DNA from: a virus
Direction: 5' to 3' (one strand)
Virus record (IMG/VR): IMGVR_UViG_3300041955_000659
Span: 1 to 21,542 of that record
Length of the DNA stretch: 21,542 nt
The notes beneath the pieces are model-generated. The model saw only the letters and a list, made by a program, of their open reading frames with translations, did no database searches and was not told where the DNA came from. Within the stretch, counting starts at the first letter, position 1, and the number at the start of each line of letters is the position of its first letter. The translations under genes and the position numbers were made by a program. This document shows, piece after piece, positions 2,069 through 9,576 of this stretch.

Positions 2069-2077
2069 GGGGGTGGC

Positions 2078-2248
2078 CTATGGCGCGCAGGCTCGCCGTC
2101 CGCACCATTCTTTCGCGGCCCGCATGGTTTCGAACCATGTAATTAATACTCCATCTTTGCGAACACTCCAACCACCATGCCTATCTTGTTGCACTATATA
2201 AGGACCAAAAACATAGCAGCGAGTTACCATCGGGAGTTTCCGGGTCAT
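2078..2248 (-). CDS. Small hypothetical protein, first gene of the leftward unit
   Basis: This 56-residue product has a compact fold-like pattern: CYVFGPYIVQQDRHGGWSV, then a DGVLITWFET hairpin and a terminal helix with Cys residues. Such small beta-beta-alpha phage proteins are common and mostly uncharacterised. ATG 2248-2246 is chosen over the longer open frame (to 2317) because AGGAGAG lies about six bases upstream. It is the first gene of the leftward run, so its promoter should lie in the gene-free region immediately to the right. Confidence 0.55.
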   Translation of the reverse strand: MTRKLPMVTRCYVFGPYIVQQDRHGGWSVRKDGVLITWFETMRAAKEWCGRRACAP

Positions 2249-2304
2249 CTTTTCTCTCCTGCGAGGGCAGAAAATGGGCCAGTTTTCGGGCACGAAAAAA
2301 TATA

Positions 2305-2526
2305 TTTTAGGGGTCATTTTTCCCTACCCGTAGGTAAACCCTACACCCAAAAACCGGGTTCGCAAAATTATTTTTGCTCGCGGGATGACAGAAATCGGGG
2401 CGAGCGGGGGTGCGAGCCTGCCCGGCAGCCCCTAAAAAGCAGCCAGGTTGTGCCGAAAAAACACTACCTATGCGCGTGTCGCAGGGCCTTTTTGCGACGC
2501 AATATGTGGGTTTTTGACCCCTAAAA
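2305..2526. repeat. Three CCCCTAAAA boxes, outer two in inverted orientation
   Basis: TTTTAGGGGTCA (2305-2316) and TGACCCCTAAAA (2515-2526) are an exact inverted pair about 200 bases apart; one further base pairs on the outer side (2304 with 2527). A third copy of the core, CCCCTAAAA, lies at 2429-2437. All are upstream of the leftward gene run, consistent with binding sites for a dimeric regulator. No protein is assigned. Confidence 0.45.
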
Positions 2527-2652
2527 TTGGGGGTTGACCCCTGTTTTTGGCTCTTCATGGGTTATTTTGGAGGGTATTTTTGGAGCACAACCCAGGTTTT
2601 TTGCCGTTGCACCCGTCCAAAAGAGGCATATTGCATCGCAATATTCAGGGTC

Positions 2653-3027
2653 GCTATCGGCTATCACTTTGCTATCGTTTGGGAGTGATAGTCGTGATAA
2701 GTAGCTGGTAGCACGGGGGAATCGTGCCGCTTAGTGACTGCCTGAGCTATCACGGCTATCGATAGCCTATCGTCTTGCGTGAAACGTTAGCAAATCGGGG
2801 GAAGTAGCTGTGTTAACTTGGAGAACTGTCCGGGGGGAGTTTGGTCCTATCACGCGCGCGCCCGCGTGGCGGTGCGCGCCGCCTAGGCGCGGGCGCGCAA
2901 GGGTACGTGTGCGTAATGCGCGCGCTCGTGCGCGAGGGGACTTCCGAGAGATCTGCTGGCACAGGGATTGGGGTCCTATCATCTCAAGTGATAGGATAGT
3001 GATAGTCCATGATAGGAACGATAGGAG
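2653..3027. repeat. CTATC/GATAG box array
   Basis: I count about 15 occurrences of CTATC or its complement GATAG within some 375 bases; fewer than one would be expected by chance. Many are extended to CTATCAC/GTGATAG or TCCTATCA/TGATAGGA. Two form dyads: a perfect 14-base palindrome, GGCTATCGATAGCC, at 2754-2767, and TCCTATCA (2974-2981) with TGATAGGA (2989-2996) around a 7-base spacer. The array ends about 120 bases before the first late gene. It could be operators for one regulator or iterons of a replication origin. Confidence 0.65.
2856..2898. repeat. Large GC-rich hairpin/cruciform
   Basis: GCGCGCCCGCG (2856-2866) pairs exactly with CGCGGGCGCGC (2888-2898), and inside it GGCGG (2868-2872) pairs with CCGCC (2879-2883). 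The 43-base structure has 16 strong base pairs. No T-run follows on either side, so it is not a classical intrinsic terminator. It sits within the GATAG-box array. Confidence 0.6.
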
Positions 3028-3072
3028 GGCAGCGGCGAGTGCGGAGCGGATGATACCCCCGGTCGGTGCCGC

Positions 3073-3137
3073 TGTAAAGGGGGGGCTTTACAAACGCGGC
3101 GAATCAGTTTAGACGCCTTGACCCTAGGTGGAGGGTC
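3073..3137 (+). promoter_or_regulatory. Leader hairpins upstream of the NusG-like gene
   Basis: Two inverted repeats precede the first late gene. TGTAAAG (3073-3079) pairs with CTTTACA (3086-3092) across six Gs. GACCCT (3120-3125) pairs with AGGGTC (3132-3137) across AGGTGG. The second would sequester the presumed Shine-Dalgarno (GGAGGG, 3130-3135) of ATG 3145. They may be an operator, a translational control hairpin or a recruitment element for the NusG-like factor. These roles are inference. Confidence 0.4.
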
Positions 3138-3144
3138 GGCGCGC

Positions 3145-6250: not shown

Positions 6251-7991
6251 GAAGTCACAGAAACGTCCGCGCCGTCCTCCCTCCCGGAGCAGGCGCGGAC
6301 GTGGCGCCGCCGCTCATCCCCGTCCCCCCAGACAGAAGCGGCGGCGCCAGTCACCTCAAGAGAAGACCGCGCGTAAGCAGACGCTGAAGCAGGCTACGCT
6401 GACCCCGCGACAGGCCGCGCGCATTACTCACGAGATCGTGGCACGTGCCCGAAAAGGGCGCCCCCCGCTCGTGCCGATGATGATGGACAGCGTCTTCGCG
6501 CCCGCCAGGCCTCCTCCGGGGGTCGTGCCCAAGAAGGCGCAGATCGCGCTGGACAGCGCGCAGAATCAGGTCATCCAGTGGGCCGGGCAGTTCGGCTTCT
6601 ACAACGGTACGTTCGCGCAGGGCTACACGTTCATGGGGTACCCGTACCTGGCCGAGCTGGCGCAGGTGCCGGAGTACCGAGTCATCACCGAGACGCTCGC
6701 GGAGGAGATGACTCGCAAGTGGATCCGCTTCCAGGCGGTAGGCGACGACGATCTGGACGAGCAGCGCGCCGACCGAATCCACGAGCTCGAGGACCGCATG
6801 GACGAGCTCGTGGTGCGTGACGTGTTCCGCCGCACGGACGAGCTCGACGGCTTCTTCGGGCGTGGACACATCTACATAGACCTCGGCAATACCGAGGAGC
6901 GCGAGGAGCTCCGCACCAGCATCGGCAACGGGCGCGACGCCGTCAGTCGTCGCAAGATAGGGCGCCGGAACAAGATCTACGCGCTGCGTCCCGTGGAGCC
7001 GGTTTGGACGTACCCCACCACGTACAACAGCGATGATCCGCTGCGGCCCGACTGGTACGCGCCGACGCACTGGTTTGTGATGGGCAAGGAGGTCCACGTC
7101 TCGCGGCTGCTGCCGTTTGTCAGTCGGCCGGTGCCGGACCTGCTGAAGCCAGCGTACTCGTTCGGTGGTCTGAGCATGTCGCAGATGGCCAAACCCTACG
7201 TGGACAACTGGCTGCAGACGCGGCAGTCGGTGAACGAGGGCGTCCACACCTACTCCACGATGGTGCTGGGCACCAACCTGGCGGAGTCCATGCAGCAGGG
7301 TGGTGAGCAGCTGTTCATGCGCGCCGAGCTCTTCAACGCTACGCGGGACAACCGCGGGCTGATGATGACGGACAAGGAGTCCGAGACCCTGGAGAACGTG
7401 GCGGTGCCGCTGGGCTCGCTCGATCTGCTCCAGGCGCAGGCACAGGAGCACATGTGTGCGGTGAGCAAGACGCCCACCGTCAAGCTGCTCGGCTTGCAGC
7501 CCGCGGGCCTGAACGCGTCCAGCGAGGACATGATGCGCGTCTTCGAGGACATGATCGCCGCTCGGCAGGAGCGCTTCTACCGCCCGCACCTGACTAAGAT
7601 CGTGCACCTGGTCATGCTCGAGCTCTGGGGCGAGGTGGACGAGAGTATTACATTTCAGTTCGTGCCGCTGCGCTCCCTGGACGAGCGCGGGCAGGCGGAG
7701 GTGCAGAAGATCAAGGCGGAGACGGACGTCGTCCTCGTGGACGGCAATATCCTCCACACCGAGGAGTCGCGGCAGCGCATCGCCGACGATCCCAACTCGC
7801 CGTATCCGGGGCTCGACGCGGACGACGTGCCGATAGAACCAGAAGACGAGATCTCCGGTGGCGAGGAGGGTGGGGGGCTGACGAAGACGAAGATAAACGT
7901 GGCGGGTGGCGACGAGGCCGCGCTCGCGGCGAACGGGGGTGTCCCGCTCGGAGCGCGGAGGCGCAGACAGAATGCCGCGCCGACGCACTAG
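6240..7991 (+). CDS. Portal protein (DUF1073 type)
   Basis: The portal is the dodecameric ring at the capsid vertex through which DNA passes. The body matches DUF1073 portals: VIQWAGQFGFYNG and FMGYPYLAELAQVPEYRVITETLAEEMTRKW near the start, FGRGHIYIDLG, then SFGGLSMSQMAKPYVDNW, and the late SKTPTVKLLGLQPAGLNASSED segment. The first 80 or so residues are extremely basic and probably disordered. No ATG lies near the expected start. TTG 6240 is preferred because GGAAG lies six bases upstream, giving 583 residues; TTG 6207 in frame would add 11. Either overlaps the preceding gene. The acidic C-terminus overlaps the next start at 7972. Position after terL and before a gpF-like protein is canonical. 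Confidence 0.88.
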   Translation: MPSKKSQKRPRRPPSRSRRGRGAAAHPRPPRQKRRRQSPQEKTARKQTLKQATLTPRQAARITHEIVARARKGRPPLVPMMMDSVFAPARPPPGVVPKKAQIALDSAQNQVIQWAGQFGFYNGTFAQGYTFMGYPYLAELAQVPEYRVITETLAEEMTRKWIRFQAVGDDDLDEQRADRIHELEDRMDELVVRDVFRRTDELDGFFGRGHIYIDLGNTEEREELRTSIGNGRDAVSRRKIGRRNKIYALRPVEPVWTYPTTYNSDDPLRPDWYAPTHWFVMGKEVHVSRLLPFVSRPVPDLLKPAYSFGGLSMSQMAKPYVDNWLQTRQSVNEGVHTYSTMVLGTNLAESMQQGGEQLFMRAELFNATRDNRGLMMTDKESETLENVAVPLGSLDLLQAQAQEHMCAVSKTPTVKLLGLQPAGLNASSEDMMRVFEDMIAARQERFYRPHLTKIVHLVMLELWGEVDESITFQFVPLRSLDERGQAEVQKIKAETDVVLVDGNILHTEESRQRIADDPNSPYPGLDADDVPIEPEDEISGGEEGGGLTKTKINVAGGDEAALAANGGVPLGARRRRQNAAPTH

Positions 7992-9576
7992 AGACGTCGT
8001 GCTCCGCCCCGTCCGCCCCAACGCGGGCCTGGAGGCATGCTACCGCAAGCGGCTGCGTCGTCTTGTCGAGCAGATGACGCGCTCCGTGCTCTATTGGGTG
8101 CGGGCCGCGTACCGCGCCAACGAGCCGGAACTGGCACAGGACGCCAACGCTGCGACCGAGCTGCGCCGCGCGTTGCGGAAGCTCACGGCGCGGTGGCAGT
8201 CGCGCTTCGACGAGGCGAGCGAGGAGATGGCGGAGTGGTTCGCGCAGTCGGCCTCCGCCCGCAGCGACGCCAGCATGCGGCGCATCCTGCGCAACGGCGG
8301 CCTCAGCGTGCGCACGCGGCACACGCCCGCGCAGCGCGAGGTCATGGGCGCGATAGTCGCGGAGAACGTGGCGCTGATCAAAAGCATTCCGCAGCGCTAT
8401 CTCGGCGCGGTTGAGGGCTCCGTGATGCGCTCGGTGCAGACGGGGCGCGACCTCAGCGCGCTGACCAAGGAGCTGCAGAAGGAGCACGGCGTCACGTCGC
8501 GCCGGGCCGCGCTGATAGCGCGGGACCAGAACAACAAGGCCACCGCGGCGCTGCACCGCGTGCGGCAGACGGAGCTCGGCATCACGGAGGCCATCTGGCT
8601 GCACTCCGGCGGCGGCAAGCACCCGCGGCCAACGCACAAGCGCAACAGCGGCAAGCGCTACAACGTGGCGGAGGGATGGTACGATCCGGAGGTCAAGCGG
8701 AACGTGTTCCCCGGAGAGCTCATAAATTGTTTTCCAGGCCAATCAAAGATCCAGTTCGCGCGTAATATAGAAGTAGCGTACCGGCGTTTCTACACAGGCG
8801 AATTGGCCTTTTTGGTTACGGAATCTGGTAAAACGCTCCGAGCGACACCAAATCACCCGGTTCTTACGAAACGAGGGTGGGTCCCGATAAGTTTGGTCGA
8901 TGTAGGCGACTACATCACTGAGATTGCCTCGGACACAATCATTCCTGCCGTAGCTGAAAGCTATGTAGATAACACAGTACCCTCTCTTGTTGAGATATTT
9001 GATTCTCTTGCGAGAACGGGGAAGGTTAGGCCGAGGTCGTCCCTGGGTTACTTCCACGGCGATGCTGTCTGCGATAGCAATGTCGATGTTGTAGATGCCG
9101 CAAGGCCGTTGAGCTTCGACAGTTTTGAACTGCTTAGAAAGAGCCGAGAAAACCAGATCTTCACAGGCTCCAATTATCCTAGACTTGCGCATAGCTTTGT
9201 TTCTAAGCTCTTTACGCGAGGCTTTTTTGCCACGGCGCGCTTCGTTGGCTTTTCTGGTAATTTCTTTGCGCCTTTTAGGACTTTCTTTTTGCATCCGCAA
9301 CTTGTTGGCTTCTCCGAGCGTTCTTCTGGTTCCTCCTGCAGCCAAGATACGATTAAGAACAGGTCCTCTGTCGATTTGAAATTTTTTGGCGAGAGCCGCG
9401 AGACTAATCCCCTTTTCATATTGCCGACGAAGCATTCTCGCGTCACCCATGTCGATGTAACCACGTTTGATGGACATGTCTACAACCTCCAGACTTCTGA
9501 CGGATGGTACGTGACCGGGGGGATCATAACACACAATTGTCGCTGTGTGTCACGCAGCGTGATACCGGGACTGTAG
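7972..9576 (+). CDS. Mu gpF-like head morphogenesis protein interrupted by an intein
   Basis: The 534-residue precursor is a minor head protein of the Mu F/SPP1 gp7 family, which associates with the portal and internal capsid. Family hallmarks are ALIARDQNNKATAALHRVRQ around residues 181-200, WLHSGGGKHPRPTHKR, and the C-terminal PGELIN...CRC. The PGELIN and CRC parts are separated by 270 intein residues (codons 8728-9537). Without the intein the host protein would be 264 residues: 252 before and 12 after (CRCVSRSVIPGL). ATG 7972 has GGAGG ten bases upstream; an in-frame GTG at 7906 lies deep in portal and is rejected. The start overlaps portal. The insert is much less GC-rich than the exteins (one 60-base line at 9241 is 40% GC versus 65% at 8641). 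Confidence 0.9.
   Translation: MPRRRTRDVVLRPVRPNAGLEACYRKRLRRLVEQMTRSVLYWVRAAYRANEPELAQDANAATELRRALRKLTARWQSRFDEASEEMAEWFAQSASARSDASMRRILRNGGLSVRTRHTPAQREVMGAIVAENVALIKSIPQRYLGAVEGSVMRSVQTGRDLSALTKELQKEHGVTSRRAALIARDQNNKATAALHRVRQTELGITEAIWLHSGGGKHPRPTHKRNSGKRYNVAEGWYDPEVKRNVFPGELINCFPGQSKIQFARNIEVAYRRFYTGELAFLVTESGKTLRATPNHPVLTKRGWVPISLVDVGDYITEIASDTIIPAVAESYVDNTVPSLVEIFDSLARTGKVRPRSSLGYFHGDAVCDSNVDVVDAARPLSFDSFELLRKSRENQIFTGSNYPRLAHSFVSKLFTRGFFATARFVGFSGNFFAPFRTFFLHPQLVGFSERSSGSSCSQDTIKNRSSVDLKFFGESRETNPLFILPTKHSRVTHVDVTTFDGHVYNLQTSDGWYVTGGIITHNCRCVSRSVIPGL
8743..9477 (-). CDS. Antisense-nested homing endonuclease (HTH + Vsr/PD-(D/E)XK-like)
   Basis: This 244-residue gene lies wholly inside the intein on the opposite strand. 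N-terminal helix-turn-helix: LRRQYEKGISLAALAKKF then DRGPVLNRILAAGG, residues about 16-49. A very basic linker follows (RTLGEANKLRMQ, then RRKEITRKANEARRG), similar to linkers in Vsr-like homing nucleases. The nuclease core at about 100-175 is IIGACEDLVFSALSKQF, GIYNIDIAIADSIAVEV, then KYLNKRGYCVIYIAFSYG. Candidate catalytic residues are E106, D132 and E142. Its role would be to cut intein-less alleles so that repair copies the intein. ATG 9477 is chosen because GGAGGT lies seven bases upstream. The frame opens to a GTG at 9534, three bases inside the intein edge; the TGA is at 8745-8743. Its codon boundaries coincide with the intein frame. Nuclease-family placement is by motif only; activity is inferred. 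Confidence 0.82.
   Translation of the reverse strand: MSIKRGYIDMGDARMLRRQYEKGISLAALAKKFQIDRGPVLNRILAAGGTRRTLGEANKLRMQKESPKRRKEITRKANEARRGKKASRKELRNKAMRKSRIIGACEDLVFSALSKQFKTVEAQRPCGIYNIDIAIADSIAVEVTQGRPRPNLPRSRKRIKYLNKRGYCVIYIAFSYGRNDCVRGNLSDVVAYIDQTYRDPPSFRKNRVIWCRSERFTRFRNQKGQFACVETPVRYFYITRELDL
9485..9528 (-). promoter_or_regulatory. Shine-Dalgarno and extended -10-like sequence for the antisense gene
   Basis: On the minus strand GGAGGT (9490-9485) lies seven bases before ATG 9477, which is essentially consensus. Further upstream TATGAT (9528-9523) is preceded by TGT (9531-9529), making an extended -10 pattern TGnTATGAT; transcription from it would begin near 9516. No good -35 is seen at 17 bases. 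The Shine-Dalgarno is antisense to the Asn-Leu-Gln codons of block F, and the -10 is antisense to the Ile-Ile codons of block G. The ribosome site is strong; the promoter is a candidate only. Confidence 0.55.

Follow-up and report, generated by a model that had tools for sequence, protein, structure and literature searches.

A phage head-protein intein with a predicted Vsr-like homing endonuclease encoded in register on its opposite strand

Our analyses of a 21.5-kb virus record (IMGVR_UViG_3300041955_000659; all 21,542 nucleotides were analyzed and are called the window) revealed a locus that is very probably a mobile intein whose homing endonuclease lies on the complementary strand, in precise codon register, rather than in frame within the intein. 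The Hint blocks of this intein are selected on the sense strand and its middle on the antisense strand, the middle being chiefly a by-product of the gene encoded there. The double-coded arrangement of intein and antisense nuclease is found again in widely differing phages and appears to be previously undescribed.

The host of the intein is a MuF/SPP1-gp7-like minor head protein gene at positions 7906 to 9576 of the plus strand, which matched PF04233 (E 2e-10) and phrog_324 (E 2e-72). The 270-residue intein (8728 to 9537, plus strand) is inserted at ELIN|CRC and matched PF14890 with an E of 9e-7, under the curated cutoff. Its translation contains the splicing residues, namely Cys1 (at 8728), a TPNH block B (residues 40 to 43), block F (GHVYNLQ) and a His-Asn end, with the terminal Asn270 ending at 9537 and Cys+1 following directly. 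The GC content of the intein is ∼48%, compared with ∼70% in its flanks. In an AlphaFold model of the sense protein (overall pLDDT 72.7), a Hint fold is predicted with core pLDDT values >90, and the top Foldseek matches were solved inteins, with a probability of about 1. Confidence is high in both the N-terminal half (residues 1 to 70; 8728 to 8937, plus strand; pLDDT mostly >90) and the C-terminal half, which includes block F and HN|C (9427 to 9537, plus strand; pLDDT >90). Between them lie an accessory module of a helix and strands that contains an FHGD motif (residues 81 to 130; 8968 to 9117, plus strand; pLDDT 72 to 93) and a filler predicted to be disordered (residues 140 to 230; 9145 to 9417, plus strand; pLDDT mostly <50). 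Thus, sequence and model indicate that the sense product is a MuF-like head protein interrupted by an intein of Hint fold, and splicing is predicted.

The antisense gene (8743 to 9477, minus strand) encodes 244 residues, from an ATG at 9477 to 9475 to a stop at 8745 to 8743, in codon register with the intein. It is preceded by a Shine-Dalgarno-like GGAGGT (9485 to 9490, minus strand) that is written in the block F (YNLQ) codons and whose position is conserved across relatives. As the preliminary description of this DNA had it, sense residues 109 to 124 (FHGDAVCDSNVDVVDA; 9052 to 9099) are complementary codon for codon, and letter-perfect, to antisense residues 127 to 142 (GIYNIDIAIADSIAVE); the span of 9052 to 9111 given there starts correctly and ends four codons too late, as residue 124 ends at 9099. 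The pairings it named also hold: Glu142 (GAA) faces Phe109 (TTC, 9052 to 9054), and Asp132 (GAC) faces Val119 (GTC), the first Val of a VDVV motif. The accessory sense module overlaps the catalytic region of the antisense protein, and the disordered filler faces its helix-turn-helix (HTH) and linker.

The in-register antisense frame contains no stop in 244 codons, despite 18 Leu and 26 Ser sense codons opposite (P about 6e-6, assuming even use of synonymous codons), while the remaining antisense and sense frames over the same region contain 6 to 19 stops. Across 113 inteins, 23 antisense-stop codons were observed versus about 975 expected from the codon usage of the host proteins. The antisense start falls on a block F codon, as ATG in 71 and GTG in 6 of the 113 (CAT makes up 38% of host-protein His codons), and is absent from its usual place in 18. 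The block F Leu codon is CTC in 73/113, compared with 22% in host-protein codons, and it is this CTC that supplies the GAG of the Shine-Dalgarno sequence. The antisense stop falls within the first 1 to 15 intein codons. A sigma-70 consensus scan placed no promoter to drive the antisense gene; promoters of the host may differ from this consensus.

In this register, the third position of a sense codon faces the first position of an antisense codon. Position-specific differences were counted in 24 independent pairs, the host-protein figure coming from pairs with usable host sequence. Sense third- and first-position differences numbered 409 and 693 across the HTH and linker (p 1e-17) and 235 and 339 across the nuclease core (p 2e-5), and 3216 and 1508 in the host protein, corresponding to third/first ratios of 0.59 to 0.69 in the intein middle versus 2.13 in the host protein. 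When sequences were aligned by the sense protein, the counts were 583/873 for the middle, 319/213 for the Hint N-terminal half (a ratio of 1.50) and 149/96 for blocks F and G. Because sense first positions vary more than third positions in the intein middle, it is the antisense strand that is selected there, an answer to the question of which strand is conserved that the preliminary description had proposed to settle by codon-position substitution rates. Selection on the sense strand prevails in the Hint blocks, including the N-block that faces antisense residues 190 to 231, which are mainly sense-selected; likewise, at the C-terminal β-hairpin of the antisense protein (residues 206 to 242; 8752 to 8862, minus strand), which faces the same block, the sense strand is the more selected. 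The antisense frame is a real, selected gene.

The AlphaFold model of the antisense protein (pLDDT 93.4, pTM 0.79) combines an HTH and a helical linker with a nuclease fold. The HTH (residues 13 to 46; 9340 to 9441, minus strand) is supported by the model helices and by Pfam HTH families in relatives, and resembles resolvase/transposase HTHs; together with the linker (residues 54 to 98; 9184 to 9318, minus strand), the region of the conserved Ala77, Arg82, Gly83 and Ala95, it forms a predicted N-terminal DNA-binding region joined to the nuclease. The Vsr/PD-(D/E)XK-like nuclease domain (residues 101 to 199; 8881 to 9177, minus strand) carries Glu106, Gln123, Tyr129, Asp132, Glu142 and Arg158. 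In structure comparison, this fold was closest to VSR (1cw0; Z 11.3, rmsd 2.8 over 111 residues), I-Bth0305I (3r3p; Z 9.6, rmsd 3.6 over 94) and 3hrl (Z 9.3), and profile searches matched 3hrl (1e-7) and 3r3p (1e-6). Foldseek with the antisense model had no match at E ≤ 0.001; 3r3p ranked second. For the antisense protein of the window itself, family assignments by Pfam and PHROG were weak or absent. Among 124 sequences of <90% nucleotide identity, Asp132 and Glu142 are invariant (124/124), Tyr129 is conserved in 98% and Glu106 in 93%; Glu106, Asp132 and Glu142 are the residues set against the EDxHD signature, to parts of which they may correspond. Some relatives have a GG-x-W-H stretch after Glu142, which the window's copy lacks. 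Thus, the antisense gene appears to encode an HTH joined to a Vsr/I-Bth0305I-like nuclease whose activity is predicted.

Searches by tblastn returned 133 records with the sense query and 61 with the antisense query, the same phage head genes being found by both; for example, Klebsiella phage RCIP0054 was found with E values of 5e-20 (sense) and 4e-20 (antisense). Each of the first 14 phage MuF inteins, a divergent set, had a nested, in-register antisense ORF. The alignment of these 14 was too diverse for scanning collections and closer subsets were used; three viral-contig scans then gave 163 loci, a genome-contig scan one (Gordonia) and a plasmid search two phage-like records. An intein stands in register opposite the nuclease in 176 of 178 nuclease loci. 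To avoid selection by the antisense protein, 80 viral inteins were also chosen by the 63-residue Hint N-block alone, and 78 of these have the nuclease; the other two are one at a contig end (L228) and one mini-intein. Both samples bear out the earlier expectation of an intact antisense ORF, and FHGD-like inteins, mentioned in the preliminary description for other phages, indeed occur in many annotated phage head proteins, antisense to the nuclease. The usual insertion site in diverse phages, HPN|CRC, is near-constant. The two loci without an intein opposite the nuclease (L160 and L161, one virus type) encode a free-standing homologue (2219 to 3142, plus strand, in L161), arranged tail to tail with a MuF gene that lacks an intein, as also found in L272 and L273; the protein is thus conserved without an intein opposite. 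This free-standing copy is a possible ancestor or escapee. In the entry for Salmonella phage vB_StyS-sam (L010), a short hypothetical protein (2075 to 2476, minus strand) is annotated antisense to the intein; it may be an unrecognized piece of the nuclease ORF.

The preliminary description had suggested that the FHGD...VDVV stretch of the intein is a shadow of the antisense catalytic motif. For VDVV (9082 to 9093, plus strand), which lies opposite antisense Tyr129-Asn130-Ile131-Asp132, and for the central filler, this view was borne out. Antisense wobble positions are free at Tyr129 (TAC 86, TAT 35), Asn130 (AAT 67, AAC 53) and Asp132 (GAC 73, GAT 51), indicating that the sense VDVV is a shadow. 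FHGD (9052 to 9063, plus strand), the antisense of Ile139-Ala140-Val141-Glu142, is different. Here the antisense wobble is frozen at position 139 (xTC in 120), Ala140 (GCC in 115/124) and Val141 (GTG in 99) and skewed at Glu142 (GAA 110 versus GAG 14), whereas other Ala and Glu codons of the antisense gene vary freely in their wobble base, including that of Ala77, an antisense-only residue (GCC 47, GCT 45, GCG 22, GCA 7). This freezing at AVE indicates that the sense FHGD residues are selected too. Moreover, two mini-inteins without the nuclease, L235 (about 176 residues) and L304 (172 residues), retain FHGDG as TTT CAT GGG GAT; their antisense frames are dead, and TTT would destroy the antisense Glu. 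The two lie apart from each other in the Hint tree, where support for the placement of L304 is weak. Such natural mini-inteins of 172 to 176 residues are possibly useful as small splicing elements.

That FHGD is only a shadow of the nuclease and by itself does nothing for the intein would fit the antisense selection of the intein middle and the use of TTC for the sense Phe in all 110 Phe cases, a codon that the antisense Glu (124/124) needs, while the sense His is kept in just 103/124. We consider it very unlikely, given the frozen and skewed wobble of residues 139 to 142, the predicted order of the FHGD module in the sense protein and, above all, the two mini-inteins, which largely refute it unless their loss of the nuclease was very recent; the FHGD part of the shadow proposal accordingly fell on the very kind of homologue, one that keeps FHGD over a disrupted antisense frame, that its author had named as contradicting it. 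Freezing of the wobble by a DNA- or RNA-level signal, such as a regulatory or protein-binding site, rather than by a sense peptide would account for a run of four codons in which, in most copies, positions 1 and 3 are both largely invariant. It seems equally improbable, and at the DNA level was rejected, because both mini-inteins keep the same amino acids with different codons. Thus, FHGD/IAVE is constrained on both strands, and the frozen codons, the mini-inteins and the contrast between an ordered module at residues 81 to 130 and disorder at 140 to 230 make it most likely that FHGD has a sense role of its own. At antisense position 160 (8998 to 9000), the sense Phe is kept in 86/124 while the antisense residue alternates between Lys and Glu; sense selection dominates at this point inside the nuclease region.

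The opposite reading, in which the antisense ORF is a by-product of sense-intein conservation and codon bias, draws on the fact that in-register antisense frames echo sense conservation, as they do at residues 190 to 231. It is barely tenable and in its pure form was rejected: third/first ratios are <1 outside the Hint blocks and >2 in the host protein, antisense-stop codons are avoided (23 versus about 975), the nuclease fold is confidently predicted and a free-standing homologue has no intein opposite. Alternatively, the nuclease may be real and serve a purpose other than homing, as a domesticated enzyme acting against rival phages, against the host or in DNA packaging. The free-standing copy outside an intein is in keeping with this, but the location within an intein, the low GC relative to the flanks in the window and the near-constant HPN|CRC site fit homing, and we regard a non-homing function as unlikely. 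Under the preferred reading of a mobile intein, the antisense protein would be translated from its own transcript, use its HTH to bind HPN|CRC in a MuF gene without the insertion and cut there, and repair would copy intein and nuclease into the cut gene. The intein would remove itself from the head protein by splicing, and antisense coding would uncouple production of the nuclease from that of the head protein, which is abundant and late.

Mobile inteins are generally described with the nuclease in the same reading frame, and gene finders drop antisense ORFs of this kind as overlaps. Classical large inteins (PI-PfuI, RecA, VMA) likewise combine a Hint domain that has all splicing residues with a nuclease in one mobile element, but there the nuclease is in frame; in the window, the sense middle is filler predicted to be disordered, and a gene of its own on the complementary strand encodes the nuclease. 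The phage homing endonucleases of the I-Bth0305I/EDxHD (Vsr-like) group are alike in nuclease fold and sequence, joined DNA-binding modules and phage setting. Their described members are intron-encoded or free-standing, whereas the window's nuclease is antisense in an intein and has an N-terminal resolvase-like HTH and an Asp...AVE signature. The Vsr mismatch endonuclease (1cw0) and DUF559/MTES_1575 (3hrl) have the PD-(D/E)XK-like core in common with it, and Glu, Gln, Tyr, Asp and Glu of the antisense nuclease align with 3hrl, yet these proteins lack an HTH, are not mobile and are sense-coded. Annotated intein-containing head proteins (phrog_15127, phrog_324, e.g., phage Snoke MK931441) represent the same host gene and intein family, with the antisense nuclease unannotated in their records or present as short unnamed ORFs alone. 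Antisense homing endonuclease genes are known in nuclear group I introns, where I-DsqI is expressed and active; it too is antisense within a self-splicing element, but that element is a ribozyme and can dispense with an open protein frame on its sense strand (PMC9548176). Searches of a collection of open-licence papers turned up no antisense or out-of-frame intein nuclease, an absence that is no proof.

Other overprinted nucleases were found in phage inteins. The MuF intein of Gordonia phages Lennon and SchottB lacks FHGD; the frame antisense to it codes for another protein, which begins with MKLDPVAAAYVAAFIDGEGTV and shares 32 to 33% identity with endonucleases annotated in Cyanophage PP and Caulobacter phages (E 9e-7). 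This protein looks LAGLIDADG-like, with weak Pfam support. Differences between the two phages at sense positions 1, 2 and 3 numbered 33/1/7 in the antisense core and 12/6/59 in the host protein. A search of viral contigs for this LAGLIDADG-like antisense enzyme found nothing. In L304, a MuF-like gene (minus-strand ORF, 6059 to 3056) contains two inteins, the upstream one with a 325-residue GIY-YIG ORF in another sense frame (Pfam E 4.5e-9) and K/R/S-rich filler in its own. Together with the Vsr-like case, these suggest that overprinted nucleases arose more than once. It is thus fairly likely that phage head-protein inteins repeatedly carry homing endonucleases overprinted in frames other than that of the intein: Vsr-like antisense (widespread), LAGLIDADG-like antisense (Gordonia) and GIY-YIG in another sense frame (L304).

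Phage hosts of the architecture described here range from Gordonia to Vibrio, and inteins annotated without a recognizable endonuclease may hide one in another frame. The locus offers a natural test case for dual coding: the same short motif forms an active-site strand of a nuclease and belongs to an ordered region of an intein, and relatives that are free-standing or lack the nuclease provide controls. If repeated overprinting is borne out, it would represent a further mobile-intein architecture beside in-frame and free-standing nucleases, one in which expression of the nuclease is separated from that of a late structural gene and which, in the Vsr-like case, would include a catalytic-site motif selected on both strands.
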